34,792 nucleotides of DNA from a virus. The stretch lies in IMG/VR virus record IMGVR_UViG_3300021373_001198, positions 1 to 34,792 of that record. The stretch is one strand, 5' to 3'. Position 1 is the first letter of the stretch. The number at the start of each line of letters is the position of its first letter. Positions 1,474 through 32,588 of the stretch are shown here, piece after piece. The notes beneath the pieces are model-generated. The model was not told where the DNA came from. It ran no database searches and was given only the letters and a program-made list of their open reading frames with translations. Position numbers and translations under genes: made by a program.

Positions 1474-2685
1474 TTATCTAATTGTGTAGACACCACTATT
1501 GATTCCTTGTATTAGATACATCATAGCGTATCTGATTGCATCAATGTAGTGATTGAATTTATCTACTGGAGCTTCACCTTTACCTTTCCAAACATAGTTA
1601 TTTATTTCTCTGATAATACCATGAGAATTCCTATCTACAATAATCTCATAATCTTGCATAAGTGCAATACCAGATAATATACTACCTTTCTTTTTTATAG
1701 TAGGTTTTATGTTAAGTCCCAATGTCTTTAGTTCTTGTATCAGTCTGGGTTCTGAATTATCACAAATAATCAAATCTAAGCCACATTCAGTCTTATTCTT
1801 CATATAAACCTGAGAAGTGCTTAAACCCTTATTACCAAATATCTCCTTGACCCATACCTTTCTAGCATTTTTATCTACTGAAATTTTTACAAGCGTTGTC
1901 AAATCCTCAGAAAATCCAAAATCTTGACCGTAGCAAGTCAATTCTGTAGGAATGTAGTCCCCAACTCTCCACTTTCTAATAATAGTTCCTTCAGCCTTAT
2001 TTAACCATCCTCCTAGTATCTGATGTTCGTATTTATCAGGTCTTTTCTTCTTCATTGTGTCTATTTGCTGTAAAAACGACTCTGAAAGGTTATCTTTGTT
2101 ATCTCTGTATGTAGTATGTATGTAAGTAACGTTATTTCGAGTCAAATTAGAGCCTTCCTTGACATTTTCTGTCAAAAACCACCTTTTGTATATCCAATGC
2201 TCTTTTGTGGTCGGATTTAGTATTAAAATGACTCTATTTTGCTTCAATTGTGAACGTATAGAGAAATCTATCTTGTCAAACGTCTCTTCATCGACTAATT
2301 CTTCTGCTTCATCCACTACAAACGTAGTTACACCATTTAAAGACTTCAAAGCAGCTGTTTGGTTACCACTAGAAGTCCTAATACCCTTAAAAATGATAGA
2401 ACTACCTGTTTTTAGGTTCATTATCTCATCTTTAGTTATCCTAAAGTCCTCATGAACACCCATAAGGTTAATTTTCTCTATAAATTCAGGAATAATTGAT
2501 GTATGAGCTGAAATCATAGTATAACGAGAGAATAATACTTTGTGACCAGCCTCATAAGTAAGGTTAAGTAGGAATACGTTAACACTAAATGACTTACCAG
2601 AACCTCTACCTCCAGTAATAACATAATATCTTGAATCCCTTTGGAATAAAGGAATGTATTTATTATGAATATTTAGTTTACTCAT
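1474..2685 (-). CDS. Terminase large subunit (TerL), PBSX/Terminase_3 type
   Basis: This is the ATP-driven DNA-packaging motor and headful/end-cutting nuclease. The 403-aa protein has a Walker A motif GGRGSGKS at residues 25-32, a Walker B motif VVDEAEEL at 123-130 with the catalytic glutamate, and a C-terminal RNase-H-like nuclease with acidic positions at D255 (YGQDFGF) and D309 (ICDN). The length is normal for the family. It overlaps the TerS-like gene by 8 nt and forms with it a two-gene block downstream of the putative late promoter at 3070-3097. Confidence 0.96.
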   Translation of the reverse strand: MSKLNIHNKYIPLFQRDSRYYVITGGRGSGKSFSVNVFLLNLTYEAGHKVLFSRYTMISAHTSIIPEFIEKINLMGVHEDFRITKDEIMNLKTGSSIIFKGIRTSSGNQTAALKSLNGVTTFVVDEAEELVDEETFDKIDFSIRSQLKQNRVILILNPTTKEHWIYKRWFLTENVKEGSNLTRNNVTYIHTTYRDNKDNLSESFLQQIDTMKKKRPDKYEHQILGGWLNKAEGTIIRKWRVGDYIPTELTCYGQDFGFSEDLTTLVKISVDKNARKVWVKEIFGNKGLSTSQVYMKNKTECGLDLIICDNSEPRLIQELKTLGLNIKPTIKKKGSILSGIALMQDYEIIVDRNSHGIIREINNYVWKGKGEAPVDKFNHYIDAIRYAMMYLIQGINSGVYTIR

Positions 2686-3067
2686 CCTTTTTGTCAGGAG
2701 TTACATCTATAACCTTGTCTTTTATCTTTTTAGTAACCTCATTGTCACCAAAGAAGTTGATTATAGGTGCTTTTATGTTATTTGTAGTAGTGTCTTTGTC
2801 TTCACCATAAGCATAGTCCATTAGAAGCTTCATGTGGTTGTAGCTACCCTTTTCTGCTTGTTTAGCTAGACTCTCAAAGGCATTTACTTCACTACCAAAC
2901 ACATTTTTGATAGCTTTCTTTGCATATTGCTTCTTTCTATTCTTCTTTGCTTGGTTAACTCTAGGCTTATTAGACCTATTCATTTCAGGTAAAGGTAGTT
3001 TGGGTATAGACTTCTTCCTAGAATTACCTTTACGACCGTCTGTGGGCTTTATTTCATTACTTTTCAT
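2678..3067 (-). CDS. Terminase small subunit-like protein
   Basis: The 129-aa protein has a very basic N-terminal half (GRKGNSRKKS, many K and R), then a helical segment around AFESLAKQAEKGSYNH and LLMDYAYG, and a C-terminal tail with IKAPIINFFGDNE. This arrangement, directly before TerL, is typical of flavobacterial phage proteins annotated as small terminase or DNA-binding packaging proteins. The assignment rests on synteny and that resemblance. The ATG at 3067 lies only 2 nt after the late motif at 3070-3080, so the mRNA from that promoter would be essentially leaderless. Confidence 0.7.
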   Translation of the reverse strand: MKSNEIKPTDGRKGNSRKKSIPKLPLPEMNRSNKPRVNQAKKNRKKQYAKKAIKNVFGSEVNAFESLAKQAEKGSYNHMKLLMDYAYGEDKDTTTNNIKAPIINFFGDNEVTKKIKDKVIDVTPDKKDE

Positions 3068-3069
3068 AC

Positions 3070-3097
3070 TAAGATAACGTAATAATAGCTGTTTTGT
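3070..3097 (-). promoter_or_regulatory. Putative phage late promoter A (before terminase genes)
   Basis: On the minus strand ACAAAA (3092-3097) is followed by 11 nt and ACGTTATCTTA (3070-3080), then GT and the TerS ATG. Four other copies of this bipartite motif exist in the window, three before other late blocks. It occupies most of the 32-nt gap between the gene ending at 3100 and TerS. Recognition by the phage sigma factor (4715-5254) is inferred. Confidence 0.75.
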
Positions 3098-3099
3098 TT

Positions 3100-3339
3100 T
3101 TACAACTCATCTTCATCATCCATTTCATGCAACTTAATTATCTCAAGTAACATAGTGTGTTCAAACTCATCTAAAGCCTTCTTTATACCTGCACAGATTA
3201 AATACTGCTCTTGTTCTTCATAATACATCATAGAGTCATACATATCATCCATAGGGCATCCTAATTCTAACTCAATTAATGCCTGAGTATAATATTCATT
3301 GATTATTTTACTATTCTCTTCCGACTCTGATTTTGTCAT
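3100..3339 (-). CDS. Small acidic hypothetical protein (79 aa)
   Basis: A strongly acidic 79-aa helical protein (MTKSESEENSKI at the start, HEMDDEDEL at the end) with two cysteines. It overlaps the 5'-nuclease gene by 29 nt and is the last gene of the early block before the late promoter for the terminase genes. No family is recognised; an accessory or DNA-mimic-like role would be speculation. Confidence 0.65.
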   Translation of the reverse strand: MTKSESEENSKIINEYYTQALIELELGCPMDDMYDSMMYYEEQEQYLICAGIKKALDEFEHTMLLEIIKLHEMDDEDEL

Positions 3340-4039
3340 TACAATCTGTTTTTAACTTTAAAAGCTCTCTACACTCTATAAACTTGTTTTTAGCCTCTGT
3401 GTCGTATATTTCTTTAAATAAGGTGTATACCCTTCGGTTTGCAGAAAAGTCACTAGAAACACCCTCTAAAAGCCTCCTAGCGTATACTTTACCATATCCT
3501 TTACAATAGTTTACATTGTCAGCTGTATCTCCAGTAATCATTTGACTATAAAAATTAAAGGTAGCTTCCTCTTCAGATATCTTACTAAGAGTCATCCTTT
3601 TGTAATGGCAATCATAAAACCAACAAGGGAACTGCTTATAGTCTTTATCCATAGAAGCTATGATAACTGAGTCAACACCTTTTTCATCAGATATTCTTTT
3701 CCATAACGTAGCAACTACATCATCTGTTTCGACCCCTATACCATAATGAGACTTATATCGTTGTTTAACTTTATCGTGTAGCTCACCAAGTATTGGAGGT
3801 CGTTCAGATGTTCTATTGGCCTTGTAGTCTTTAGATATATCTTTTCTAAAGTTACCTTTAGAGCCATTGCATACTATAAACCTTTCTATCTCCACCTGCT
3901 CTGATATCTTAGCATACAAAGAGTCCAATCCATATTGGAATTTAGTAAAAGCATCATCCAATGACAGATACTTGTCATCACCCTCACTATTAAAGCAAGA
4001 GGCATAAATCAAACTATCTGCATCAAATAATACTGTCAT
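3311..4039 (-). CDS. 5'-3' exonuclease / flap endonuclease-like nuclease
   Basis: Phage 5' nucleases of the FEN/T5-exonuclease family remove RNA primers and 5' flaps. The 242-aa protein shows the family's acidic metal-site pattern: FDADSL near the N-terminus (D6, D8), VETDDVVAT, ASMDKDY, and ITGDTADNV followed by a GxGKxxA-like helix-hairpin-helix segment (KGYGKVYARRLLEG). The basic arch segment KDYKANR is present. It overlaps the upstream 47-aa gene by 4 nt (ATGA), showing it is part of the replication operon. Confidence 0.9.
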   Translation of the reverse strand: MTVLFDADSLIYASCFNSEGDDKYLSLDDAFTKFQYGLDSLYAKISEQVEIERFIVCNGSKGNFRKDISKDYKANRTSERPPILGELHDKVKQRYKSHYGIGVETDDVVATLWKRISDEKGVDSVIIASMDKDYKQFPCWFYDCHYKRMTLSKISEEEATFNFYSQMITGDTADNVNYCKGYGKVYARRLLEGVSSDFSANRRVYTLFKEIYDTEAKNKFIECRELLKLKTDCNDKIRVGRE

Positions 4040-4179
4040 GCTAAATCTTTTTTTAATTCCTCCATTCTTATTTCCTTTCTTATCTTGGCTCTCTTTTTTT
4101 GATTAATGTATCTTTCTACACTTTCATCTTTCCACATTGTTATTGGGTTTACTCCTAGTTCCCAGAATGGTTTGCTCAT
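4036..4179 (-). CDS. Small hypothetical protein (47 aa)
   Basis: The product begins MSKPFWELGVNPITMW and has a basic, helical C-terminal half. Its stop codon overlaps the start of the nuclease gene as ATGA (4036-4039), and it fills the gap after the gene ending at 4215, so it fits the operon. An N-terminal proline/tryptophan segment followed by a charged helix is also seen in small phage accessory proteins, but no family is recognised. Confidence 0.65.
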   Translation of the reverse strand: MSKPFWELGVNPITMWKDESVERYINQKKRAKIRKEIRMEELKKDLA

Positions 4180-4214
4180 AATTATAATTTATATTTTTCC
4201 AAATATACATATAA

Positions 4215-4712
4215 TTATTGATATGCTTTAATATATCTTCTAAGATTTTTAACAATCTTTGCTACGCATGGAGTACATTGAGTATTCTTACTAAGGTTAG
4301 TTCCGAACACATAGTTGTAAATCTCAAACAATCTACACTTCTCTTCATAGGTAACCCTAGAAGCATTAGAGTCTAAGAATGTTGACAGGAACTTATAGTC
4401 ATCCTCCTTCAAGCATTTAATTACTTTATAGGGAAACTCTTGATTCCATTTGTCTTTTCTATCATCACATCCACAGTCATCACCTGATATAAACTCTACA
4501 ACCTTATCAATACCAGTAGCCTTTGTAATCTTAGCTACGGTATCTCCTAGTCCTTTAGAACGCTTCTCAATGTTAGTCTTCAGCTTCTCATAGCCTTCAT
4601 CTACTTTAGTAGCTTTCCATTCCTTATACTCTCTATAATCTTTTGACCTTTTGTCAATGGTGTTATAGTAACCTCTTTGTTCTAAATCTAAATAGTACTT
4701 ATCTGGTTTCAT
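4215..4712 (-). CDS. Conserved cysteine-containing phage protein of unknown function
   Basis: A 165-aa protein with a charged N-terminal half (PDKYYLDLEQRGYYN) and a C-terminal domain containing DDCGCDDRK, an EEKCRLFEIYNYVF helix and CTPC. The paired CxC and CxxC motifs suggest a zinc- or metal-binding fold. I recall similar CGCDxRK proteins in phages of Bacteroidota but know of no assigned function. It starts 2 nt after the sigma-factor gene ends, so the two are probably translated together; a regulatory partnership is possible but unproven. Confidence 0.75.
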   Translation of the reverse strand: MKPDKYYLDLEQRGYYNTIDKRSKDYREYKEWKATKVDEGYEKLKTNIEKRSKGLGDTVAKITKATGIDKVVEFISGDDCGCDDRKDKWNQEFPYKVIKCLKEDDYKFLSTFLDSNASRVTYEEKCRLFEIYNYVFGTNLSKNTQCTPCVAKIVKNLRRYIKAYQ

Positions 4713-4714
4713 AA

Positions 4715-5254
4715 TTAATTAATTTTATCGAAGTCTTGATTAAAGTAATCTTGTAAATCTTCAGAGAGATATATTCTCATTATCTTTTTATATTTTAGTA
4801 TTGACCTATGTATAGAGCTTAAACCTATACCAGCTCCAGTAGCAATTTTTCTTAATGAGAACCCTTGCATAAAATACAAATCAAACAACTTTATGTCGTA
4901 TGGTTTCCATGTAGAAACTATAGAGTTTACCTCTTTCATTATGTGTTCAAAAGCCCTATCCTTGCCATCATCATAAACAGACTCATCTACACAATCAGTA
5001 TCAAGATACTCAAAAGTTATGCTACTTCTTATTTTCTTTGACCTTATCTTGTCTATAAACAAACCCCTTAATACTGTCCATAAGAAATACCTATTTATAT
5101 CTCCCTTGTACATAATGGAATTAACATCCTTTACTCTTCTATGTATTACCAGGTACATATCCTGGACTAAGTCTTTAGCTTCCTCTAAATCATTAGTCAT
5201 ATTTAAAGCCATCTTTATGCACAGGTCATGGTGCTTGGCTACTTGTTCTAACAT
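4715..5254 (-). CDS. Phage RNA polymerase sigma factor (sigma-70-like, regions 2 and 4)
   Basis: This 179-aa protein has a region 2-like helical core (about residues 5-75, with EEAKDLVQDMYLVIHRR and RGLFIDKIRSKK) and a C-terminal region 4 helix-turn-helix (about 118-160, with FSLRKIATGAGIGLSSIHR). It lacks regions 1 and 3, as ECF-type sigmas do. It overlaps the RusA gene by 29 nt and lies in the early block. It is the obvious candidate to redirect host RNA polymerase to the five ACAAAA-N10/11-ACGTTATCTTA motifs; that link is inference from gene context and motif distribution. Confidence 0.88.
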   Translation of the reverse strand: MLEQVAKHHDLCIKMALNMTNDLEEAKDLVQDMYLVIHRRVKDVNSIMYKGDINRYFLWTVLRGLFIDKIRSKKIRSSITFEYLDTDCVDESVYDDGKDRAFEHIMKEVNSIVSTWKPYDIKLFDLYFMQGFSLRKIATGAGIGLSSIHRSILKYKKIMRIYLSEDLQDYFNQDFDKIN

Positions 5255-5648
5255 CTATTTCTTTTATTATAACTTCAACTCTAGGGTTATCCCTATCTAA
5301 TTCTGTTGGTAGTATTGTCTCTGTCTTTACATAATCATCATTATCATCAGTCCAGCATTCGTATTGAGTAATAGCATCTAGTAGAAACTTACTTACAACA
5401 CTAACAACATTCATTTTGTCTAGTTTTCTGTTAGAACCTTTAAACACCTTATAGGTTATCTCTACAGGTGTTTGTATTTTTAATCCGTTTAATTGTTTGT
5501 ATAGGTTTTGTGAATATATCTTTTTAGCATCATTACTTATTCTGTGGTGTAAATTTCTGTAGGCATTCATATTAAGAAACACCTTCTTATCTTTCATAGT
5601 CTTTCTAGGTAAACTAATGTACAGAGGTGATACTATGTTATGATTCAT
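5226..5648 (-). CDS. RusA-like Holliday junction resolvase
   Basis: RusA-family nucleases resolve branched DNA late in replication and recombination. The 140-aa length is typical. The protein has an N-terminal beta strand (YISLPRKTM), a central basic segment, and the characteristic aspartates in RKLDKMNVVSVVSKFLLDAI and CWTDDNDDYV, followed by a final strand with VEVIIKEI. It overlaps the nuclease-like gene upstream by 4 nt and the sigma gene downstream by 29 nt. Confidence 0.85.
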   Translation of the reverse strand: MNHNIVSPLYISLPRKTMKDKKVFLNMNAYRNLHHRISNDAKKIYSQNLYKQLNGLKIQTPVEITYKVFKGSNRKLDKMNVVSVVSKFLLDAITQYECWTDDNDDYVKTETILPTELDRDNPRVEVIIKEIDVRTSSQAP

Positions 5649-5989
5649 AACAATTCCTTTATAGGTAAAAGTATTCCTTTACTTGTATTGTTATCACCAC
5701 CAACTCTGTCTCTATCTGTTCCTATGTATTTTCTACACCTATCTTTTAATTCTTTAGTACTTATCAAATGAAATGTGTCACCAAAAGCAAAAGCATAATA
5801 GTCTGACTCTGTTGTGCTTATTCCACTTCTCTTGCCTCTTGACATGTACTCTACATAAACATTATTTGTCTTTGTAGCTTGTAGGTCATATTTGACCTCT
5901 ACTTTCTTATTTCTAAATATGTCACCTAGCTCCTTCTCTTTTGTCTGACCAACCTTTAAATCGTATTTAAAATCGTTATTGTAGTTCAT
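5645..5989 (-). CDS. PD-(D/E)XK-like nuclease, putative
   Basis: A 114-aa protein with KVEVKYDLQATKTNNVYVEY, which fits an ExK catalytic core strand preceded by an acidic residue (GDIFRNKK), followed by RSGISTTESDYYAF and a strand FGDTFHLIST. This is the usual layout of small PD-(D/E)XK nucleases of phages, which may act on branched or foreign DNA. It shares 1 nt with the metallophosphoesterase gene and overlaps the RusA gene by 4 nt. Confidence 0.65.
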   Translation of the reverse strand: MNYNNDFKYDLKVGQTKEKELGDIFRNKKVEVKYDLQATKTNNVYVEYMSRGKRSGISTTESDYYAFAFGDTFHLISTKELKDRCRKYIGTDRDRVGGDNNTSKGILLPIKELL

Positions 5990-6747
5990 TACAATTCCAT
6001 TGGTTCATTAATAGCGTGACTACCACCAAATACAACAGCACATCCAATAGCTGGTTTCTTAAAGTTCTTTCCGTAAGCCATAGCATAAGACTTGCTATTT
6101 ATTCCACATCCAACTGCACAACCAAATACTTTGTAGTTAGCACCTACAACAAACTCAGTAAACATTTCAGTATGCCTATGACCTTGTACTGTAGACATCA
6201 TATCATCCTTAGCTTTCTTGGTTGCTCTTCCTGATTCACCATGAATATATTGGACACCATCAAAAACAAAACGAGTATCGAAATTCCACTTAGGGACTTC
6301 CAATACTTCGTTAAATGATTTAATCCATCTTTTAGGTACTCCAGAGGTAAATGCTTTACGAGAGATAATTCTGTCGTGGTTACCTATACAGATATCTGCT
6401 TCAGGAAATACTTTATACCACTTCTTTAACTTATTTATAGCTAACTGAAGTTCATCACCTCCACCTAAACCATCAGGGTCAGGTTCGTGATAAGAGCTGT
6501 AGTGATTGTCTATAACATCACCGATAAACACAACCTTATTACAATTGTGCTTATCGTAAATGTTTTTACAATGTTCCAAGTAACCATCTAAACAGAATGG
6601 TTCGTGGAGGTCACCAATAACTAAAATCCTGCTTTCATCTTTTATCAAGTTCTTGAAAGCTTTTAGGATTCTACCCTTTAGTCTTGGTCTGTAATCTTTT
6701 TGTTTCACAAGGTAAATATATGTAATTAAACAAATATTTTCCACCAA
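5989..6747 (-). CDS. Calcineurin-like metallophosphoesterase
   Basis: All signature blocks of the two-metal phosphoesterase fold are visible: GDLHEP (45-50), GDVIDNH (76-82), GNHD (122-125), a histidine at 169 in YIHGE, and GHRH (189-192). The substrate is unknown; phage members include nucleases and 2',3'-cyclic phosphodiesterases. The start is uncertain: the frame opens with TTG at 6747, 5 nt after the upstream stop, but a GTG at 6708 (before KQKDYRPRLKG) would also give a full domain. Confidence 0.85.
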   Translation of the reverse strand: MVENICLITYIYLVKQKDYRPRLKGRILKAFKNLIKDESRILVIGDLHEPFCLDGYLEHCKNIYDKHNCNKVVFIGDVIDNHYSSYHEPDPDGLGGGDELQLAINKLKKWYKVFPEADICIGNHDRIISRKAFTSGVPKRWIKSFNEVLEVPKWNFDTRFVFDGVQYIHGESGRATKKAKDDMMSTVQGHRHTEMFTEFVVGANYKVFGCAVGCGINSKSYAMAYGKNFKKPAIGCAVVFGGSHAINEPMEL

Positions 6748-6752
6748 AGTTA

Positions 6753-7598: not shown

Positions 7599-7631
7599 TA
7601 TTGTTTTAATTAATAAGGTTATTGTTTGAAT

Positions 7632-7661: not shown

Positions 7662-7683
7662 AAAAACTAAATTAACTCAAATA

Positions 7684-8013: not shown

Positions 8014-8017
8014 AATT

Positions 8018-8563: not shown

Positions 8564-8576
8564 AATTTAATTTAAT

Positions 8577-8868: not shown

Positions 8869-9315
8869 TTAAAAGTGTCTGAATGACAATTCTTTGTCTT
8901 TTAAATAATTATCAGTATCAAAGTAAATACTTTTATCGTATATTTTAATTCTTTCAATACCGTATTGTATTAAAGCCCTAACGAATCTAAATCTTTTAGA
9001 TGGGTTTAGGCATTTGAACTTTATAGCTTTACCAACCCTATGTGATGATTCTAACCCTAAACCAATTTTATCTGCATAAGTCTTTGAAGTGTATCCTAAA
9101 TAAATGTGACCTTTCAATCTTTCTGTTCTAAACACTTCATCTAATATAAATACTGGTTCGCTTTCCATGAACATCTTTCCACTTCCTAAAACATCAGGAC
9201 TATCAAACATAGACCATTTAAGTACATTCAATCCTTCTTCATCCATCTCCTTTGTATACTTGTCTGTGTATGTAGGAACGAAGTCATTAAAATTATGCCT
9301 CTTCCTACTCTTCAT
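8869..9315 (-). CDS. Degenerate peptidase M15-like protein (zinc site lost)
   Basis: The 148-aa protein contains the M15_3 opening FDSPDVLGSG (37-46) and then aligns without large gaps to the phage's own endolysin at 10246-10569: YTSK for YRSP, SSHRVGKAIK for SSHIKGLAVD, and SIYFD for FIHVD. The first zinc histidine is kept (H92), but the aspartate ligand is replaced by K99 and the final histidine by Y131. It is therefore unlikely to be a working zinc peptidase and may bind cell-wall or another ligand. It stands alone between the lysis cassette and a strong terminator. Confidence 0.7.
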   Translation of the reverse strand: MKSRKRHNFNDFVPTYTDKYTKEMDEEGLNVLKWSMFDSPDVLGSGKMFMESEPVFILDEVFRTERLKGHIYLGYTSKTYADKIGLGLESSHRVGKAIKFKCLNPSKRFRFVRALIQYGIERIKIYDKSIYFDTDNYLKDKELSFRHF

Positions 9316-15886: not shown

Positions 15887-17631
15887 ATCTTTAAAATGTT
15901 TCTAATTTTACTTAAAGTACTTCTGTAAGCACCTCTGTCTGGTCTATCAATCATTCTCTCAGTCATCTCACTAGGATTATTAGGAGCTGATAAACCTTTT
16001 TCATATGCAGAATCAGGGTCAACTCTTTTATCACCTTTCTTCTTGTAGACTCTTAACTCCCAAAAATGATGGCAATTTTTTCCTCCCTTGTATTTTAGCA
16101 AACTATAATTCTGCTTATTGTGTCCTAATTCCTTATTGACACCTCTAAACGACATTTGGTTGATATCTTCTTTTCTAAATACTATATTTCTTTCTGTAAA
16201 TGTTTCCATTTTCTTACAGAACTTTCTGCTGTTAGGTGACTTTCTAACTGGCATATAAGCATATCTTATCTTGTAGATATCACTATCTTCTTTAGATGAT
16301 TTATTGCTAGACTTAATTTCAGCCATTTTAACGTCATTTAAGTCCTCTGAGTATACTTCAGTATGGATAACCTCCCAATCGTCGCTTAAAACCTCTCCTA
16401 GACCCTCTAATTGCTCTAACATGTCATCTCCTTCTTCCTCAGAAAAGTCTTCCATTGTTTGTGAAGATAATTTCTCACCTGTTTCTTCCTCTTTTCTAAT
16501 CTTAGTAGAGATGTTGTCTAACTCTGTAAATTCAATTGGTTGTAATGTTATAAAGTATAAATCTTGTTGAATTCCGTTAAACTCTAAGATGTCTTCCAGG
16601 CAATAGATTATTTCATCTTGGAATGGTCTAATGATTACATTATCCATAAGTACAGATGCAGTTCTAAGTTCTTCAGCATTGTTACCAAAACCTGTGTTAT
16701 CTTTTATACCTAGTAAGATAGGTGATACGATACCATGACCTAACATAATCTTTTCCCTAGCTTCATCAGATAGGAATTGGTATTGTGCATGAGCATCTGG
16801 TAAGTGAATAGCTTCGATATCAGCTTTAGTATCTGCTGATTCGTTAAATGCAATGATTGTTTTACCAGCATTTGAACTACCTGAGAATTTATCATTAATC
16901 TTTCTTTCAATAGCACCTTGAGTTTCTTCGTTAGGAATACCATTGTTGAAGTTAATAAATAAACTAGGCTGTAAACCTTGTTGTATATTTGAGATATGAT
17001 AGTTTGATACCTCACATTCCAAATCAGCGTATTGTAGACAAGCTTGGTAGTCAGGAGTAGCATAGTAATAGAAACCACTTCTATAAGGCTTTATGACGTA
17101 TATCTCTTCCTTTTGAGACTTACTACCATGTCTAAAGCAAGGTATTCTCTTAGGCTTGTCGCTAGGCCTCATATTAGACCACTTAGGATGATAGTAATAT
17201 GCTTTTATTACACCATCTTTATCACACTTTTCAGCCCTTAATGTTTCCATAGGGAAGTGCGATATCTTTAGTATTTTTGTTTTAGCTTTGTTGTAGGTAA
17301 GTTTTAAAGCAGCTTGACCTAACTTCTTTCTGTCTATAACTACTTTTTTTATCTCTCTAGGTTTAAGTAGTTTTTTCATCTTTACATAATCCTCTGGAAA
17401 TAAGTCAGAATTAGTTGACTCAATACCTCTACCGAAAATCATATCAGATATACCATTGTTACACCTTGCATTAGTAGGGCTAGACGTATCTAAATCTATC
17501 AATCTACCAAAGTAATCATTATCATCACCCCAAGCTACCCACTCTTTATTGTGTACCTCTTTTACTTCTGGAGCTTCATAAGAAGATAGATTAAGTATTC
17601 TTACGTTATTCTTTTTGTCTTTATTCATCAC
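15883..17631 (-). CDS. Portal protein with an extra C-terminal CHH domain
   Basis: The first ~400 residues look like an HK97/SPP1-type portal: an N-terminal segment with WVAWGDDNDY, a long helical/strand core, IMLGHGIVSPILLGIKD and a helix GFGNNAEELRTASVLMDNVI. It forms the dodecameric DNA gate at the capsid vertex. The last ~130 residues (YKIRYAYMPVRKSPNSR, then GGKNCHHFWELRVYKKKG) form a separate basic domain with a Cys-His-His motif, also seen in portal or MuF-like proteins of related phages as I recall. It overlaps both neighbours by 4 nt. Confidence 0.85.
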   Translation of the reverse strand: MMNKDKKNNVRILNLSSYEAPEVKEVHNKEWVAWGDDNDYFGRLIDLDTSSPTNARCNNGISDMIFGRGIESTNSDLFPEDYVKMKKLLKPREIKKVVIDRKKLGQAALKLTYNKAKTKILKISHFPMETLRAEKCDKDGVIKAYYYHPKWSNMRPSDKPKRIPCFRHGSKSQKEEIYVIKPYRSGFYYYATPDYQACLQYADLECEVSNYHISNIQQGLQPSLFINFNNGIPNEETQGAIERKINDKFSGSSNAGKTIIAFNESADTKADIEAIHLPDAHAQYQFLSDEAREKIMLGHGIVSPILLGIKDNTGFGNNAEELRTASVLMDNVIIRPFQDEIIYCLEDILEFNGIQQDLYFITLQPIEFTELDNISTKIRKEEETGEKLSSQTMEDFSEEEGDDMLEQLEGLGEVLSDDWEVIHTEVYSEDLNDVKMAEIKSSNKSSKEDSDIYKIRYAYMPVRKSPNSRKFCKKMETFTERNIVFRKEDINQMSFRGVNKELGHNKQNYSLLKYKGGKNCHHFWELRVYKKKGDKRVDPDSAYEKGLSAPNNPSEMTERMIDRPDRGAYRSTLSKIRNILKI

Positions 17632-17981
17632 ACTATGTATGTATTATCGTCAGCAGAACTATAAGTTGTGTATAAGTTCTGTGATACGACATGTTTAATT
17701 TTATAATCAGATTGACTAGTAGAGAATATTTTATCTCTATAAACCAATTCAGTATCTCCTGTTATCTCTAGGAAGTATGTAGAACCTTCTTTTAGTATAG
17801 TACTAGAGAAAGTTACATCAGTAAAATTACCATTAGCAGCTATAGTAGCACTTGTGATATTTTCACTTTTTCCATCACCATCTCTTCTGATTTTTAAGTT
17901 TATACTACTAAATGTAGATAAATCTTTTCTAGGCATTATAGAAATGGTTTGACTAGATGTGTTAGGTAATAATATTATCAT
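17628..17981 (-). CDS. Beta-rich structural protein of unknown function (117 aa)
   Basis: The protein begins MIILLPNTSSQTISIMPRKD and shows a repeated strand pattern (LKIRRDGDG, GNFTDVTFSSTILKEGSTY, YRDKIFST) like an immunoglobulin-like or decoration domain. It is the first gene after the late promoter at 17984-18010, whose core ends 2 nt before the ATG, so the mRNA would be nearly leaderless. It overlaps the portal gene by 4 nt. Head decoration or neck function is a guess from position. Confidence 0.7.
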   Translation of the reverse strand: MIILLPNTSSQTISIMPRKDLSTFSSINLKIRRDGDGKSENITSATIAANGNFTDVTFSSTILKEGSTYFLEITGDTELVYRDKIFSTSQSDYKIKHVVSQNLYTTYSSADDNTYIV

Positions 17982-17983: not shown

Positions 17984-18010
17984 TAAGATAACGTAAAAAT
18001 ATATTTTTGT
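17984..18010 (-). promoter_or_regulatory. Putative phage late promoter B (before portal block)
   Basis: On the minus strand ACAAAA (18005-18010), 10 nt, then ACGTTATCTTA (17984-17994), then TT and the ATG at 17981. It lies between the terminator at 18021-18047 and the first gene of the portal-to-lysis block, exactly where a new promoter is needed. Confidence 0.8.
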
Positions 18011-18020: not shown

Positions 18021-18047
18021 TAAAAAAGCCCTGCGAATGCAAGGCTT
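18021..18047 (-). terminator. Intrinsic terminator after the major tail protein gene
   Basis: On the minus strand AAGCC-T-TGC pairs with GCA-G-GGCTT around a 4-nt loop (one mismatch), followed by a run of T's. It lies 27 nt beyond the stop codon at 18074 and just upstream of late promoter B, so it separates two late transcription units. Confidence 0.82.
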
Positions 18048-20673: not shown

Positions 20674-20852
20674 TATATTATTATTTTATAATTATTTTCT
20701 TGTAATATATTAAACCCATCTTCCTGTAATAAATAGTCTTCAGGAATAGCAGTTATATTACCTATACCTTGTTTCCAATATTCAGGTGCTTTACATTTTT
20801 TACAACAGTTTATGCAATATGTATTTTTACACTTACAATACTTAGCTCTCAT
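20673..20852 (-). CDS. Small Cys-rich (zinc-ribbon-like) protein, 59 aa
   Basis: The product begins MRAKYCKCKNTYCINCCKKC, with six cysteines in the first 20 residues, followed by an ordinary tail. The clustered CxC, CxxCC and CxxC pairs suggest a zinc-binding knuckle. It overlaps the protease stop codon at one end and shares a TAATG with the following gene, so it is embedded in the head operon. Role unknown. Confidence 0.65.
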   Translation of the reverse strand: MRAKYCKCKNTYCINCCKKCKAPEYWKQGIGNITAIPEDYLLQEDGFNILQENNYKIII

Positions 20853-21753
20853 TATCTATCTGCTTTAGTTTAGATATAGCCCAATTCACACCAGCAGAAC
20901 CACCCCAAGCATCCCACATAAGACCACCACATCCTTCAGAATAAGGCACATCTTTATGTTGCTGATGTCTTTTAAATGAAGCCATACGAGCAATTGTAGA
21001 ACGAGATAAGGCAGCACCACTAGCTAGTTGAGATGCTCTAGTCCAGCCAACAGAAGTACCACAACTAGAACCATTCTCCTTTTTCCATTTTAAAGCCTTT
21101 TTAGCGTTGTTTCTAGCAGCTTTAGGGTAGTCGGAGTATGATTTTAACTCTTCAGCCTCTAAAGTCTCTATAATGTCTTTAATTAGCTCATCTGCATCTT
21201 GTTCTGATAAGTTTTCTACATCATCACTATCAATCTTATCTTTGTCGCTAAACATTCCTTCAATACTTAAGCCTAAATACTTTCCTTCTTTAACATCTTC
21301 CCATACCTCATCATTATCTATCTTCATAGTAACAGCCCAAGCACCTTCTACAGCATTTAATCCGTATAAAGCACTTTTATCTTTCTCAGGGTCTTCTACT
21401 ATCCAAGATTCTATAACAGATACTCCTGAAGTAGTTACTTTGTGTTCTAGAGTTGTATTGTTGTTATTTAGTCTTTTTAAATATAGTTCTGAAGCCTTTC
21501 TAACAGTTTCTTTTGAGAATACTATGTTGTATTCATAGTCTCCTTTTCTTCTGTATATTAGTTTATCTGGAACTAAAGCCAATCCAATGATTATTCTTTT
21601 CTCATCATTTATAGTCTTAAACTCAACCTTGTGTTTGTTAAGTGCTACAAAGTTCTCTTCTATGGCAGGTGACTCTACTAATGATATAGCATTTATACCA
21701 TCATCCTCAACCTGCTCATCTATTATAAGTTCTATTATATCTAAATTATCCAT
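20842..21753 (-). CDS. Prohead protease (XkdF/S78-like) with a C-terminal accessory domain
   Basis: The N-terminal ~180 residues resemble XkdF-like serine proteases: IIIGLALVPDKLIYRR, the TLEHKV segment with a likely catalytic histidine, VIESWIVEDPEKDKS, and WEDVKEGKYLGLSIEGMF with a likely catalytic serine. The C-terminal ~100 residues (YPKAARNNAKKALKWKKENG onward, CGGLMWDAWGGSAGVNWA) form a separate domain seen in other phages of Bacteroidota. It matures the capsid. It is the first gene after late promoter D. Confidence 0.78.
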   Translation of the reverse strand: MDNLDIIELIIDEQVEDDGINAISLVESPAIEENFVALNKHKVEFKTINDEKRIIIGLALVPDKLIYRRKGDYEYNIVFSKETVRKASELYLKRLNNNNTTLEHKVTTSGVSVIESWIVEDPEKDKSALYGLNAVEGAWAVTMKIDNDEVWEDVKEGKYLGLSIEGMFSDKDKIDSDDVENLSEQDADELIKDIIETLEAEELKSYSDYPKAARNNAKKALKWKKENGSSCGTSVGWTRASQLASGAALSRSTIARMASFKRHQQHKDVPYSEGCGGLMWDAWGGSAGVNWAISKLKQIDNES

Positions 21754-21767: not shown

Positions 21768-21794
21768 TAAGTTAACGTAATTTTTACTTTTTGT
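21768..21794 (-). promoter_or_regulatory. Putative phage late promoter D (before head block)
   Basis: On the minus strand ACAAAA (21789-21794), 10 nt, then ACGTTAACTTA (21768-21778), one base different from the other copies, and an ATG 15 nt further on. It sits in the 47-nt gap between the tape measure stop and the protease start. Confidence 0.72.
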
Positions 21795-28225: not shown

Positions 28226-28754
28226 CTCTCTTTATTTGTAATTTTAAATCTTTTTTATAGCTTTCGCTTAATATTGTTCTTATCTGTTCTTTTAATTGGT
28301 CTTCCATAGTCTGAAAGAAACCACTACCTTTGTATCCAAATCTTTTTGATATACCTCCCTTTTCGTTTTTAGGCTCTCTTGCGTTAGATTTTCCAGCTAT
28401 ACTTCTTGCTAAAACAAATCCTAAAGATTTGAAACTACTTTCAGATACCTTTCTAAATCTACCCTTACTGTCTCTAAATAACGGTCTCATGCCTTTTGAC
28501 CTAGCCCAGCTAGCTAAGTTATTAGACATTTCCTTACTATATTTACCTTTATTTTTTATACCATCAGATAATGCTCTAGCGTATTTAGCACTAAAAATAG
28601 CTAGGTTGTTAGCTGTGGTTTCGTATCTAAAAGACCTTATTAAGTCACCACTATCCTTAAATCCTTGCTCATCAGCTAATACCTTTAGTTTACTTACTAT
28701 CAGCTTACCTACTTGCTCTAAACCCTCATTTAAGTTTTCGTTTTCCACTAGCAA
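28206..28754 (-). CDS. HK97 gp10-like head-tail/tail completion protein
   Basis: The 182-aa protein contains the gp10-like pattern of an N-terminal helix, then FKDSGDLIRSFRYETTANNLAIF and KYARALSDG, where a strand follows a short S/D-rich turn. The remainder is basic and helical. These proteins join tail tube and head connector. It overlaps its neighbours by 7 and 20 nt in the first tail block. Confidence 0.75.
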   Translation of the reverse strand: MLVENENLNEGLEQVGKLIVSKLKVLADEQGFKDSGDLIRSFRYETTANNLAIFSAKYARALSDGIKNKGKYSKEMSNNLASWARSKGMRPLFRDSKGRFRKVSESSFKSLGFVLARSIAGKSNAREPKNEKGGISKRFGYKGSGFFQTMEDQLKEQIRTILSESYKKDLKLQIKRDGINTN

Positions 28755-29206
28755 ATACTTATTCCGTTAGGTATCTCTATTTGGAATGTAGCAGCCCATC
28801 CTGCTAACACATTACCAAATCTTTCCTTGAATGGTTCTGCTGTAGGAGCTGTTGTTACATGATAGTTGCTTTTAAACAAATCACCTCTCATCAATTTCAT
28901 AGTTAGTGAATTAACTACTTGAAACTGAGTATTCATAACGTCATGTAAGTTGTCATTCCCATAAAATTCATCAAAATCAGATGGTGACTGATTGTAATCA
29001 ACTATATCAGCACATAATATTCTTATACTAAAAGTAACTGTTCTTTCTCCATAAGTAGCATTCTCAATCAATATGTGTGATAAAGGAAAGATAGTTGTTT
29101 TATCTAAATCTATATCAGCAATGTCACCATAAGTAACTGTATTTACAGATGGACTTAACCTAAGCTCGTCTTTTATTACATCTAGTATGTCGTAAACGTG
29201 TTTCAT
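28748..29206 (-). CDS. Tail terminator-like protein
   Basis: A 152-aa protein beginning MKHVYDILDVIKDELRL, with the conserved strand TIFPLSHILIENATYGERTV, FSIRILCADIVD, a YGNDNLHDVMNTQ helix and a final GWAATFQIEIPNGISIC. Gene position next to the gp10-like protein and before the tail chaperones, and the small-domain layout, suit a tail terminator, but the name is inferred from synteny. Its ATG overlaps the stop of the frameshifted chaperone frame (TAATG at 29204-29208). Confidence 0.65.
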   Translation of the reverse strand: MKHVYDILDVIKDELRLSPSVNTVTYGDIADIDLDKTTIFPLSHILIENATYGERTVTFSIRILCADIVDYNQSPSDFDEFYGNDNLHDVMNTQFQVVNSLTMKLMRGDLFKSNYHVTTAPTAEPFKERFGNVLAGWAATFQIEIPNGISIC

Positions 29207-29466
29207 TATCTTGAATGTTGTTTAATTAACTTATTTTCTAAATCATTTCTATCTTTAACATATTCTAAATACATTAAGCATTGATGTAATGGGAGTGCTG
29301 TAACTTCGTCAATTCTTCTGACATCTCCTTTTGCAAGCTCAAATATTGCTTGATAACCTCCCCATTTTTTGCCGAAACCCCTTTTGAGGTGGTCTCCTGC
29401 TCCATCTGATATTCTTTCAGAGTAGAGGCTATCGTATAGTCCCCTAATTTTTTCACTAAACGATAA
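29206..29466 (-). CDS. Frameshift extension of tail assembly chaperone (-1 frame, 86 codons)
   Basis: From a T9 run at 29465-29473 the -1 frame stays open for 86 codons and ends at 29206. It encodes a convincing domain with GDHLKRGFGKKWGGYQAIFE, LAKGDVRRIDEV and LPLHQCLMYLEYVKDRND. No ATG, GTG or TTG occurs in this frame between the T run and codon 66, so the segment needs a -1 ribosomal frameshift at T TTT TTT from the gene at 29274-29984. The fusion would be 259 aa, like the lambda gpGT tail chaperone. Its stop overlaps the next ATG. Confidence 0.75.
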   Translation of the reverse strand, partial: LSFSEKIRGLYDSLYSERISDGAGDHLKRGFGKKWGGYQAIFELAKGDVRRIDEVTALPLHQCLMYLEYVKDRNDLENKLIKQHSR

Positions 29467-29984
29467 AAAAAAACCTTCGCACCTAACGCTATATCTATTG
29501 GCATATCTTTCATCACTTCTGCATAGAAGTCAGTACCCTGATATTCATGTATTCTATATTTACCACCTAATTGCCAAACCAACGGCCTGTACAATACGGC
29601 CATAGCTCTGTGCATATTCTTATTGTCAAATATGTAATTCTCTAAATCTTCCCATTCACCATAAGTCATTTTATCAAGATTAGGAATAAACCCAAATTCA
29701 ACTTCTACTCCATCAGTACCTTTCATTTTGAAAGTATTTACTAATGGTGTCTTAGAGTTTAGTATCTTATAGAGATGTTCTATTACAGAATCAAAGCTAG
29801 ATACTGGTATTTTGTATAATTCTTTAAGAGAAACACCACAGAATATCTCTAATAGCTTTTTATTTATAAACTCGTCAGACTCATTGTCTTTATTCTTTTC
29901 ATAGATGTCTAAAAATTTAACCCATTGTTTTAGTTTAACATTTCGGAGTGTTTTAGGTATGTCTAATGTAAATGTATAATTCAT
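29274..29984 (-). CDS. Tail assembly chaperone, short (gpG-like) form
   Basis: The 236-aa protein starts MNYTFTLDIPKTLRNV and contains FGFIPNLDKMTYGEWEDLEN, HRAMAVLYRPLVW and a MPIDIALGAKVFFY helix, as in tail chaperones of phages of Bacteroidota as I recall them. After V171-F-F (29474-29466) a T9 run can shift ribosomes into the -1 frame (separate entry), producing a 259-aa fused form. Both C-termini look like real proteins. It is the first gene downstream of late promoter C. Confidence 0.8.
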   Translation of the reverse strand: MNYTFTLDIPKTLRNVKLKQWVKFLDIYEKNKDNESDEFINKKLLEIFCGVSLKELYKIPVSSFDSVIEHLYKILNSKTPLVNTFKMKGTDGVEVEFGFIPNLDKMTYGEWEDLENYIFDNKNMHRAMAVLYRPLVWQLGGKYRIHEYQGTDFYAEVMKDMPIDIALGAKVFFYRLVKKLGDYTIASTLKEYQMEQETTSKGVSAKNGEVIKQYLSLQKEMSEELTKLQHSHYINA

Positions 29985-30001
29985 AAAATAATTTTCTATA
30001 A

Positions 30002-30028
30002 TAAGATAACGTAATTTATATTTTTTGT
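30002..30028 (-). promoter_or_regulatory. Putative phage late promoter C (before tail block)
   Basis: On the minus strand ACAAAA (30023-30028), 10 nt, ACGTTATCTTA (30002-30012), then TTATAG and an ATG at 29984. It lies in an 85-nt divergent intergenic region whose other side carries the host-type promoter of the rightward operon, so early and late control meet here. Confidence 0.8.
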
Positions 30029-30057
30029 GTTAATTTTTTTTTATTAAATATTTTCAC

Positions 30058-30065
30058 TATGTTTG
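30058..30065 (+). promoter_or_regulatory. Bacteroidota -7 box (TATGTTTG) for the rightward early operon
   Basis: TATGTTTG matches TAnnTTTG exactly. No good -33 TTG lies 19 nt upstream (the region is a T tract), so it may be a weaker or regulated promoter. Transcription would start about 4-5 nt downstream, essentially on the A of the ATG at 30070, giving a leaderless mRNA. Confidence 0.6.
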
Positions 30066-30069
30066 TTAC

Positions 30070-30294
30070 ATGAATTTAATAGATGAAGACAAAACAATTA
30101 AATTTACTAGATTCAAGTGTCTAATTACTGAATTTAATTACGAAGTAGTGAATACAAAGTCTACAGGAAAAGGTATGACTAGAATTGTGGACACCTTAGT
30201 AAGAGAAGATGGTATGAGGAAAGATTTTACAAGAACAGAATTATTAACTAGATTTAAAAACGTACAGAAAGATGAAACAAAAAGAAATTATTGA
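30070..30294 (+). CDS. Hypothetical protein (74 aa), first gene of the rightward operon
   Basis: A charged 74-aa protein beginning MNLIDEDKTIKFTRFKCLIT, with a beta-rich first half and a basic C-terminal helix (KDFTRTELLTRFKNVQKDE). It is immediately downstream of the TATGTTTG box and is probably made early after infection. It overlaps the next gene by 23 nt. No family recognised; early phage proteins of this size often modify host functions. Confidence 0.65.
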   Translation: MNLIDEDKTIKFTRFKCLITEFNYEVVNTKSTGKGMTRIVDTLVREDGMRKDFTRTELLTRFKNVQKDETKRNY

Positions 30295-30562
30295 ACAATT
30301 TAGGCTATGCCACAAAGAAATTAGTGAAGATGGTGTATTTATAGACTATAATAGCGAAGGTCATAGCTTTTTAGCTACTTGGGACTACAATGACTGTGGT
30401 TTAGAGGTTTGTGTTACTAATAACAGCACTCATGAGATATTAGACGTATTGAGTGAAACTATATCTGAGATTTATGACATCATATGGGATGCTCATAGAG
30501 AATGGGTAGAAGACAGTAGAGACTACTACTGGACATCTAGAGGATTAGTTTATTCAAAGTAA
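30272..30562 (+). CDS. Hypothetical acidic protein (96 aa)
   Basis: The 96-aa protein begins MKQKEIIEQFRLCHKEISED and is acidic and aromatic, with FIDYNSEGHSFLATWDYND and a C-terminal HREWVEDSRDYYWTSRG segment rich in W and Y. Predicted alpha/beta. It overlaps the first gene and lies 4 nt before the next. No family recognised. Confidence 0.65.
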   Translation: MKQKEIIEQFRLCHKEISEDGVFIDYNSEGHSFLATWDYNDCGLEVCVTNNSTHEILDVLSETISEIYDIIWDAHREWVEDSRDYYWTSRGLVYSK

Positions 30563-30566
30563 TTGT

Positions 30567-30824
30567 ATGGAGTTTCAAGATGTAACCTCGTATGAAGATG
30601 ATGAATCTATAATCACCATCTACATGGAAGCAAATAAAGATAAAAACTACTACTTCTTCAAACACATAGAAGATAAAACTACAGGTATGGAGGAGGTAAG
30701 AAGACAATCATTAAAATCATTTTTACTAGAATTTTATCTTATAGAGAAATTTATAAAAGGTAACCTAGTAAAAGATAGAGAATTTTTTAAGCAAGTAATG
30801 AATATTAAAACAAGTAAATTATGA
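30567..30824 (+). CDS. Hypothetical protein (85 aa)
   Basis: The product starts MEFQDVTSYEDDESIITIYM and continues with KNYYFFKHIEDKTTGM, then a helical C-terminus ending KQVMNIKTSKL. Acidic N-terminus, basic C-terminus. Its TGA overlaps the next ATG (ATGA), which supports both genes. No family recognised. Confidence 0.65.
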   Translation: MEFQDVTSYEDDESIITIYMEANKDKNYYFFKHIEDKTTGMEEVRRQSLKSFLLEFYLIEKFIKGNLVKDREFFKQVMNIKTSKL

Positions 30825-30964
30825 ATAACGTAGAAATTAAACCAACAAAGAAAGACTATTTTAGATTATTCCTAAATGGAGTAGATGTAACAGGTGAACA
30901 AGAAAGAAGTACTTTTAGACATATCCTAGAGGTAATTGATAACGGAATAGGAACAGGATTATAA
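30821..30964 (+). CDS. Small hypothetical protein (47 aa)
   Basis: The product begins MNNVEIKPTKKDYFRLFLNG and ends GIGTGL. It starts in an ATGA overlap with the previous gene and ends 2 nt before the next, so it fits the compact operon. Strand-turn-strand-helix pattern; no family recognised. Confidence 0.6.
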   Translation: MNNVEIKPTKKDYFRLFLNGVDVTGEQERSTFRHILEVIDNGIGTGL

Positions 30965-30966
30965 TT

Positions 30967-31323
30967 ATGGAAGTAAGTAAAGAACAAATTAGCTTTCTAA
31001 AAGCAGTATTAACGTCTCAGTTGCTATTAGAGGCAAATGAAGAGTTAGTTTTAACAACAAGGTACAATAATGCCTTAAAACAGCAGATAAATAGAGTAAA
31101 TAGGATGTTAGAACCTATTGTAAGAGAGAATTTTGACTCTGTATACAATACTGACCCTGAAATGGCTACAAACATACTTAATAAGATAGACTCTATCATA
31201 AATAAGGTAGCTAATCTAGATATAGATGAGTTAGTAATAGTAGATGCTGTAGTAGACAAGTACCTAGATAACAAAGAATGGTTCTTGAAACATGCAGAAA
31301 GTGAATTTTTAAGAATAGATTAA
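30967..31323 (+). CDS. Helical hypothetical protein (118 aa)
   Basis: An all-helical 118-aa protein (EVSKEQISFLKAVLTSQLLL onward) with heptad-like leucine/isoleucine spacing through ALKQQINRVNRMLEPIV and LNKIDSIINKVANLDI. Probably dimeric. Acidic overall; no enzymatic motif. Function unknown. Confidence 0.65.
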   Translation: MEVSKEQISFLKAVLTSQLLLEANEELVLTTRYNNALKQQINRVNRMLEPIVRENFDSVYNTDPEMATNILNKIDSIINKVANLDIDELVIVDAVVDKYLDNKEWFLKHAESEFLRID

Positions 31324-31324
31324 T

Positions 31325-31474
31325 ATGCAAAAAAGAATATGCGACTGCTGGTTAAGAGTTGGTGGTTGCTTTTGCGAACTAATAACAACAGAAAATAATG
31401 GAAACACAGATAATGGAACAAAAACTAATAACAAAGCAAGACATAATAAACGAAGTAATAAGTCAAGTAAATGA
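31325..31474 (+). CDS. Possible small Cys-rich protein (49 aa)
   Basis: The frame begins MQKRICDCWLRVGGCFCELI, with four cysteines in CxC and CxC pairs, followed by a low-complexity N/K/T tail that lies antagonistically over the start of the DnaA-like gene (overlap 77 nt). The Cys-rich head occupies exactly the gap between genes; the tail may be incidental. Uncertain. Confidence 0.4.
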   Translation: MQKRICDCWLRVGGCFCELITTENNGNTDNGTKTNNKARHNKRSNKSSK

Positions 31475-31835
31475 TTTTTTCGCTACAGACTGTACTCAGA
31501 ACAATAGAAGAAGAGATGTAGTAATCCCTAGAATGTATGCTTGTTGTATTATATCGGAAGTTATGCCTAGCTTAACACTAAGTGAGATAGGTAAAGCGTT
31601 TAATGTTAGTCATTGTACTATCATACACTACAAGAAAAAGATAGAAGATATGCTAAGTGTATATCCTAGAGAAAGGATGAACTACATAAGGATAAAATCA
31701 TTGGTAGAGAAATCAGACGTATACAAAAACTCTGAGTTTGTTAAATCAATTACTCAACAAACATTACTAATGGAATTGTATGATAAAATCTTATCTAAAG
31801 ATATACATGAACTAAGAGAACTATTAGCTAAATAA
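31398..31835 (+). CDS. DnaA domain IV-like DNA-binding protein
   Basis: Residues ~38-86 (RRDVVIPRMYACCIISEVMP, SLTLSEIGKAFNVSHCTIIH, YKKKIEDML) match the C-terminal DNA-binding domain of DnaA: the basic loop, the 'LSEIGKAF' helix and the 'xHxTxIHxxKKI' recognition helix. No AAA+ ATPase part exists, so this cannot open an origin like DnaA but could bind DnaA-box-like sites or repress. It might bind the 19-bp iterons at 1172-1473. A second Met at residue 6 is an alternative start. Confidence 0.75.
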   Translation: METQIMEQKLITKQDIINEVISQVNDFFATDCTQNNRRRDVVIPRMYACCIISEVMPSLTLSEIGKAFNVSHCTIIHYKKKIEDMLSVYPRERMNYIRIKSLVEKSDVYKNSEFVKSITQQTLLMELYDKILSKDIHELRELLAK

Positions 31836-31836
31836 T

Positions 31837-32187
31837 ATGAATACAAGAGAAAAATACGCAGAGATGCAAGAAGAGAAAGATATCCTTAGTGGATTTAATA
31901 AAGTTCCAGACAGAAAAGGTATGCCAGTATTTACAGGTGTACTAAAATACTTCCCTAATGCCTTAAAAGAGGTGTCTAAGTGTTCTAAAGCTGGTAACGA
32001 CCAACATCATCCAGACAAACCTCTTCATTGGGATAAGAATAAGTCTACAGATGATTATGATGCTTTATGCAGACACTTAATTGACCATACACTAAATCCT
32101 ATTGATGATGATGGACAACTACATTTAACTAAAGTAGCTTGGAGAGCATTAGCAGGATTAGAAAGATACTTAACTGATAAGAAATAA
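31837..32187 (+). CDS. dATP/dGTP diphosphohydrolase-like protein (DUF5664/PF18909-like)
   Basis: The 116-aa protein has the family pattern: DRKGMPVFTGVLKYFPNALKEVS, KPLHWDKNKSTDDYDALCRHL, and GQLHLTKVAWRALAGLE, with D/H/E residues arranged as in the MazG-like all-alpha NTP pyrophosphatases. Phage members remove dATP or dGTP pools or serve modified-base pathways. No purine-substituting genes (PurZ, DatZ) are visible. It starts 1 nt after the DnaA-like stop. Confidence 0.7.
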   Translation: MNTREKYAEMQEEKDILSGFNKVPDRKGMPVFTGVLKYFPNALKEVSKCSKAGNDQHHPDKPLHWDKNKSTDDYDALCRHLIDHTLNPIDDDGQLHLTKVAWRALAGLERYLTDKK

Positions 32188-32189
32188 TT

Positions 32190-32348
32190 ATGTACAGAAA
32201 GAAACTAATACAAAAATTACAACAATTAATAGACAGATTACCTGCTTGTAAAAAGAGACAGGAGGCTAAGAAAGATTTACTGGATTTAAAACTAAGTAAA
32301 ACTGACTACCATTACATATCACTACAAAATAAATATAGAGATTTATAA
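32190..32348 (+). CDS. Small basic helical protein (52 aa)
   Basis: A lysine-rich 52-aa product (MYRKKLIQKLQQLIDRLPAC onward) predicted as two helices. It starts 2 nt after the diphosphohydrolase stop. It may bind nucleic acid, but no family is recognised. Confidence 0.55.
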   Translation: MYRKKLIQKLQQLIDRLPACKKRQEAKKDLLDLKLSKTDYHYISLQNKYRDL

Positions 32349-32356
32349 TAAATAGA

Positions 32357-32500
32357 ATGACAGAGGAACAAGCAGAAGCTGGAAGAAGCGTATATCAATC
32401 ATTAGTAATCAACTTACCAAAAGGATATTCAGAAGGAGAACCGTTGTATCTTGCTGAAGGACTATGGGTGTATCCTGATGGAAGAATGCAGGAATTATAA
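32357..32500 (+). CDS. Small hypothetical protein (47 aa), last gene of the rightward operon
   Basis: A 47-aa product beginning MTEEQAEAGRSVYQSLVINL, with a compact beta C-terminus (GLWVYPDGRMQEL). It follows the previous gene by 8 nt and precedes the hairpin at 32520-32550. No family recognised. Confidence 0.55.
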   Translation: MTEEQAEAGRSVYQSLVINLPKGYSEGEPLYLAEGLWVYPDGRMQEL

Positions 32501-32519
32501 ATAAAACCTATAGTAGTAT

Positions 32520-32550
32520 AGCCTATTATAATATTTTTCTATAGTAGGCT
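32520..32550 (+). terminator. Hairpin at the end of the rightward operon
   Basis: AGCCTATTATA (32520-32530) pairs with TATAGTAGGCT (32540-32550) over 11 bp with one G-U and a T-rich 9-nt loop. It lies 19 nt after the last stop codon. No T tract follows, so termination may be weak, factor-dependent or the element may be an RNA-stability hairpin. The late promoter E starts 11 nt further on. Confidence 0.55.
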
Positions 32551-32561
32551 GTATCTACCAA

Positions 32562-32588
32562 ACAAAAATAAAAAAATACGTTATCTTA
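32562..32588 (+). promoter_or_regulatory. Putative phage late promoter E (facing a gene-free region)
   Basis: ACAAAA (32562-32567), 10 nt, ACGTTATCTTA (32578-32588) on the plus strand, the only rightward copy. It is identical in core to copies A, B and C. Nothing resembling a gene follows for about 500 nt, so its transcript would be non-coding or regulatory. Confidence 0.75.

Follow-up and report, generated by a model that had tools for sequence, protein, structure and literature searches.

Five conserved bipartite sites and a phage-encoded ECF-type sigma factor point to a late-promoter system in a flavobacterial-type phage

The marine phage genome in IMG/VR record IMGVR_UViG_3300021373_001198, whose 34,792 nucleotides (nt) are referred to here as the window, contains five copies of a bipartite motif, an A-rich element followed by a GTTA-containing element, together with a gene for a protein resembling the extracytoplasmic function (ECF) group of sigma factors. 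The initial annotation had proposed that this protein reads the five copies as late promoters. All five lie at the coordinates and on the strands that it gave, with gaps of 10 nt in four copies and 11 nt in one, and open reading frames (ORFs), Pfam and PHROGs place the four leftward copies, as it had claimed, directly before the terminase (TerS/TerL), portal-to-lysis, protease/head and tail blocks. The copies (P1 to P5), the genes behind them and the sigma locus are as follows.

3070-3097, minus strand: predicted late promoter P1 of the terminase block, -35-like element AAAACAAAAC, -10 element ACGTTATCTTA; predicted start on the A of the ATG at 3067, leaderless
2678-3067, minus strand: putative small terminase gene, first behind P1, sitting before TerL; weak match to PHROG 35029
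17984-18010, minus strand: predicted late promoter P2 of the portal-to-lysis block; predicted start on the A of the ATG at 17981, leaderless
17628-17981, minus strand: first gene of the portal block, conserved N-terminus M[IL]IL..P
18026-18047, minus strand: intrinsic-terminator-like site just upstream of P2, between the head and portal blocks
21768-21794, minus strand: predicted late promoter P3 of the protease/head block; predicted start at about 21765, 12-nt leader to the ATG at 21753
20842-21753, minus strand: prohead protease gene (Peptidase_S78_2, Pfam), first behind P3
30002-30028, minus strand: predicted late promoter P4 of the tail block; predicted start at about 29999, 15-nt leader to the ATG at 29984
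29274-29984, minus strand: first gene of the tail block (ORF list, PHROGs)
32562-32588, plus strand: predicted late promoter P5, before a candidate non-coding RNA and present before the same RNA in relatives; predicted start at about 32591
4715-5254, minus strand: gene for an ECF-type sigma factor of 179 amino acids (sigma2 about 1-74, flexible linker about 75-95, sigma4 about 96-171)
4215-4712, minus strand: gene for a conserved 165-residue protein (PHROG 32048) adjoining the sigma gene, a possible co-factor
30058-30065, plus strand: host-type -7 box TATGTTTG, 4 nt before the ORF at 30070 in the rightward early operon

The bipartite motif occurs five times in the window, against an expectation of zero from 100 dinucleotide shuffles. 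Its 11-mer alone, with two mismatches allowed, is not enriched (22 occurrences, 18.9 expected), so the signal resides in the full-length bipartite motif. Scored with a two-block weight matrix that was trained on 98 sites from relatives, with the window sites excluded, P1, P2, P4 and P5 reach 30.2, 29.1, 27.3 and 24.8 bits, and P3, the weakest of the five, 18.0 bits; the sixth-best site in the window scores 3.6 bits, and the best of 30 shuffles 15.7.

We scanned the regions upstream of orthologous genes in IMG/VR relatives, counting distinct regions. The motif precedes the small terminase in 46/49 of these, the first gene of the portal block in 42/42, the protease in 34/35 and the first tail gene in 16/20, the other four of which carry GTTATCTTT. 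This search upstream of structural blocks in phages with the sigma, a check that the initial annotation had suggested, found the motif recurring at orthologous sites in dozens of relatives, and the family consensus is AAAACA(R)AA - N10-12 - [A/C]GTTAwCwTA-n-TAt. Within it the conserved core is AAAACA(R)AA - N~10-12 - GTTAwCwTA-n-TAt, which refines the motif first described in two respects: the bipartite arrangement with an ACGTTA box stands, except that its leading C falls outside the core (most relatives have AGTTA), and the core reaches 3-4 nt further downstream. In the window the motif is restricted to presumed late operons, as in a phage late-sigma regulon of the phiEco32 and Kayvirus kind. 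One further match in relatives, AAAACAATATAAGACAAAAGAGGTTAACATAA, was set aside, as its reading frame indicates that it probably lies within a gene.

The product of 4715-5254 is an ECF sigma factor (sigma-70 group 4), comprising only sigma2 and sigma4 joined by a linker. Residues 5-74 match Sigma70_r2 (PF04542) with 29.8 bits against a cut-off of 24, the sole match to this domain in the phage, and residues 5-161 pass the NCBIfam model TIGR02937 (sigma70-ECF) with 46.6 bits against a cut-off of 42.9. An AlphaFold model drawing on 33 relatives places helices within residues 2-74 and 96-171 and a low-confidence segment at 76-91 (mean predicted local distance difference test score, pLDDT, 80); the best solved matches of this model in Foldseek are the ECF sigmas SigL, SigE and SigH, and a hidden Markov model search of PDB sequences likewise points to ECF sigmas. 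A scan of bacterial and archaeal genomes (84,980 species) yielded one partial match, at 38%, the other relatives lying in viral contigs, and from these searches the family looks virus-restricted. The gene is located in the replication operon and has no motif of its own, which would fit an early-to-late cascade. Although relatives are 47-59% identical to the window sigma, the acidic and aromatic C-terminal tail SEDLxDYFNxDF is nearly invariant; it might be a docking tail.

The association between sigma and motif extends across phages. A search for relatives that keep the motif and have lost the sigma, the case that the initial annotation had named as refuting its proposal, turned up none among those in which the sigma interval is present. 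At 108 loci both flanking genes (RusA and the gene for the 165-residue protein) are present and so is the sigma, and the flanks never occur on their own, although these loci are not independent, many being overlapping, near-identical or fetched via the sigma itself. Five further loci that were fetched via RusA alone all carry the sigma. Long contigs such as G041 were considered as sigma-less cases and rejected, since the whole sigma interval is missing there. A separate 58,119-base contig, G048, has two sigma genes (5162-5689 and 42032-42559) with identical scores, 37 kilobases apart, and is probably a concatenated assembly of one phage.

Among cultured phages, a tblastn search with the window sigma gave no matches, and the nearest relatives, Nonlabens phages P12024S/L (Inhavirus; 35% capsid identity), were reached via the capsid protein and annotation. 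P12024S encodes a Sigma70_r2 protein, B617_gp33, at the same genomic position as the window sigma, to which profile comparison relates it (sigma2 only, E 2.5e-10). Seven promoters can be recognised in this phage (positions 179, 3031, 5412, 21280, 23961, 25201 and 26802), each abutting an ATG; they have the -35 element of the window family, AAAACAAA, and a different, CGTTAATATA-like -10 element, and their number compares with 0.26 chance matches per shuffle. The same promoter pattern is found in IMG/VR relatives of the P12024S sigma. G060, the third sigma and a still more distant one (E 8.6e-27), is accompanied by four CGT[A/T]TTA boxes with an ATG at exactly 12 nt (binomial P about 5e-4, computed after the pattern had been seen, for a motif too weak to model). 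Three phages with shared capsid or terminase ancestry and no detectable Sigma70_r2 protein, phi46:1, RAP44 and Harreka_1, lack the family motif, and their matches to the P12024S pattern (0, 1 and 2, respectively) are at chance level. The -35 element is thus common to two lineages and the -10 element shifts with the sigma lineage, as a cognate sigma predicts, unlike a fixed host factor. Taken together, the TIGR02937 match, the fold, the conserved sites before late genes, P12024S and the sigma-less phages lend strong comparative support to the proposal that the sigma-like protein reads the motif.

The spacing between motif and start codon is bimodal. Counted from the C/A of [C/A]GTTA, the ATG is exactly 12 nt away at the promoters of the terminase and portal blocks and likewise in P12024S; at P1 this places it exactly 11 nt past the G of GTTA, and relatives show codon-level constraint near the start. 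Across 86 family promoters with a nearby ORF, the distance from this G to the start codon is 11 nt in 49, never 12-21 nt, and 22-36 nt in the rest. In P12024S the 12-nt spacing to the ATG holds for six of the seven promoters, with 11 nt in one, and nearly all sites are alike in its relatives. The first portal-block gene shows amino-acid constraint with synonymous codon changes from codon 2 onwards (e.g. proline at codon 6 as CCA/CCG/CCT, isoleucine at codon 13 as ATA/ATT/ATC), and it has no in-frame start upstream, so its ATG is the real start. This ATG has to be transcribed, and the transcription start (+1) must therefore be at or before it. ECF sigma factors usually start transcription about 11-12 nt past the -10 core. 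With this distance, +1 at the promoters of the terminase and portal blocks would coincide with the A of the ATG, and the late mRNAs made from them should then be leaderless, while the remaining promoters would give leaders of 11 nt or longer. For comparison, the leaderless share of mapped mRNAs in Flavobacterium psychrophilum is only 5.5% (PMC9723704).

We consider it very probable, from comparative sequence evidence, that all five motifs serve a flavobacterial-type phage as late promoters and are recognised by host RNA polymerase carrying the phage ECF-type sigma. The motif, its conservation, the family of the sigma and the geometry come directly from the analysis, whereas we infer recognition by the sigma, late timing (from gene content alone) and the +1 position. 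Host-type promoters would drive the sigma gene early. Of the two sigma domains, sigma4 would recognise the A-rich -35 element and sigma2 the -10 element ([C/A]GTTAwCwTA), at a spacing like that of classical ECF promoters (AAC - N15-17 - CGT). The blocks turned on in this way would be those for terminase, portal/lysis, head and tail, as well as one non-coding RNA; at the promoters of the first two blocks, transcripts would begin with the A of the start codon and hence be leaderless. ECF promoters are described by a rule of AAC in the -35 element and CGT in the -10 element (PMC3426412), and a CGT-box ECF motif, SM6, has been mapped in F. psychrophilum (PMC9723704). In the window, CGT is present at 5/5 sites, and AAC lies 15-17 nt upstream of it at 4/5. 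Regarding early transcription, the initial annotation had assigned TAnnTTTG promoters to the replication genes; such a promoter is clear for one operon only, and the leftward replication operon at 9315 has no exact TAnnTTTG upstream.

Several observations weigh against this interpretation. AGT replaces CGT in most close relatives, which therefore fit the ECF -10 rule imperfectly. The -10 variants of the family do not strictly track the sigma tree: all motif-bearing members of clade I have GTTATCTTA, while clade II mostly has GTTAnCATA with several exceptions, and an attempt to pair -10 letters one-to-one with the sigma tree was unsuccessful. The structural model has a modest predicted template-modelling score (pTM 0.57) and low Foldseek TM-scores across both domains together. 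Most relative contigs are fragments and hence uninformative on sigma absence. Finally, the box-to-start rule of phiEco32 (6-8 nt) or Kayvirus (6 nt), applied to the whole box here, would put the start beyond the ATG.

Among other explanations, the one that fares best, improbable as we judge it, is that a host-encoded ECF sigma or a phage activator, such as the 165-residue neighbour, reads the sites and the phage sigma serves something else. Flavobacteria indeed have a number of ECF sigmas, along with a CGT-box regulon (PMC9723704), and the gene for the 165-residue protein is linked as strictly as the sigma; against this, phage lineages whose own sigmas differ also differ in the -10 element, the phage has a single Sigma70_r2 match, and the P12024S counterpart of the neighbour has its own late promoter (at 21280), meaning that it is itself probably late. 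Somewhat less probable still is that the sites are variant host sigma-A promoters (TAnnTTTG), with TATCTTAN as the -7 box and some other factor activating them late. TATCTTAN does have TA..TT in common with the TAnnTTTG consensus (PMC9723704), and a host-type box occurs at 30058, but TATCATA, TAACATA and TACCATA in relatives and TTAATATA in P12024S do not fit TAnnTTTG, although GTTA and the A-rich -35 element are kept, there is no TTTG at -33, and a box at -12 to -5 (PMC9723704) would place +1 inside or past the start codon of the terminase and portal genes. That the motifs are conserved non-promoter sites (e.g. packaging, replication or recombination signals) lying before late genes by chance would account for their strong conservation and for the conserved non-coding sequence behind P5, but is highly improbable given the fixed orientation and fixed start-codon distance in three lineages, the bipartite promoter-like architecture, and the location of P2 just after a terminator-like site.

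For the 165-residue protein, considered as an anti-sigma candidate, searches of Pfam, PHROGs and NCBIfam returned no known domain; it contains GLGDTxxKxTKxxGI and CGCxxRK motifs. The similar protein in P12024S, which is shorter (L214:21280-21639), is the one with a late promoter of its own.

Behind P5 there is no ORF but a conserved stretch of about 220 nt:

32591-32811, plus strand: candidate for a conserved, probably structured non-coding RNA (covariation; indels)
Relatives of this RNA: L036:12121-12327, L041:15961-16167, L046:9567-9758 (minus strand), L144, L145, L148, L184 and L197

Its conservation extends over nine aligned sequences, all of which have their own late promoter at the same offset, and the indels in the alignment are not multiples of three. 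RNAalifold predicts 39 pairs, nine of which have two-sided compensatory changes, and the 3' end region contains an invariant AGGAGGGTGCATA. Folding of the window sequence by itself shows no exceptional stability (z -0.9), so that support for the RNA comes from covariation. No Rfam family was found for it, the matches at P5 being rejected as chance. We regard 32591-32811 as a candidate late phage non-coding RNA.

Downstream of the RNA are two imperfect 35-nt repeats (32831-32914; TTGAATTCATTGAAATGGGTTACTAC), with similar stretches in relatives. Elsewhere, iterated repeats CCCCATCATATTAAACAT form two groups, at 1172-1274 and 1417-1473, and are possibly a replication origin or regulator-binding iterons. 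A direct terminal repeat of 140 nt (1-140 and 34653-34792, 139/140 identical) indicates that the window genome is probably complete.

A broader picture, to which we give an even chance of being right, is of a virus-restricted ECF sigma lineage co-evolving with its promoters in phages of Bacteroidetes. The promoter would be welded to the start codon (CGT-N9-ATG), the late switch would also be a switch to leaderless translation in hosts without a Shine-Dalgarno signal, and the same sigma would drive a new structured late non-coding RNA. Bacteroidetes are common bacteria of the sea and the gut. For their phages, the literature searched, with most subscription papers outside its scope, yielded no description of a late-sigma system or of late gene control, and no account of the P12024S promoters. 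The motif could be used to find late operons in uncultured marine phages, and the fused promoter and start codon, if true, would make translation of leaderless messages testable in a bacterium that does not use Shine-Dalgarno sequences.

Phage late sigmas are already known, including one of ECF type in phiEco32; the abutting start codon is new here. The ECF-type sigma gp36 of phiEco32 acts at middle/late promoters with the sequence tAATGTATAtA, 6-8 nt upstream of the start (PMC4281155, PMC4331800). The two systems are alike in having a phage ECF-type sigma (a likeness of type) for the host polymerase at middle/late genes and a motif before structural genes; the window differs in having a clear -35-like element, a GTTA-type -10 element in place of tAATGTATAtA, and abutting start codons. 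Kayvirus (phage K / 515A1) has a late sigma and promoters TGTTATATTA that start 6 nt past the box (PMC7698491), resembling the window in its phage sigma, its late structural genes and similar letters (GTTATATTA, also found in some relatives here), whereas its late promoters lack a -35 box and its host belongs to the Firmicutes. With cellular ECF sigmas (PMC3426412, PMC9723704) the window shares a two-domain sigma, an AAC-like -35 element, a CGT-like -10 element and a spacing of 15-17, but the -10 element of the window family extends to GTTAwCwTAnTA, and the anti-sigma factor with which cellular ECF sigmas are usually paired was not identified in the window. P12024S/L have a sigma homologue (B617_gp33) in the same locus position, the same -35 element and the same ATG spacing, and differ in their -10 element, CGTTAATATA; sigma and promoters vary in concert in three phage lineages, of which that of P12024S is in culture, and this provides a natural series for studying change in ECF promoter specificity.

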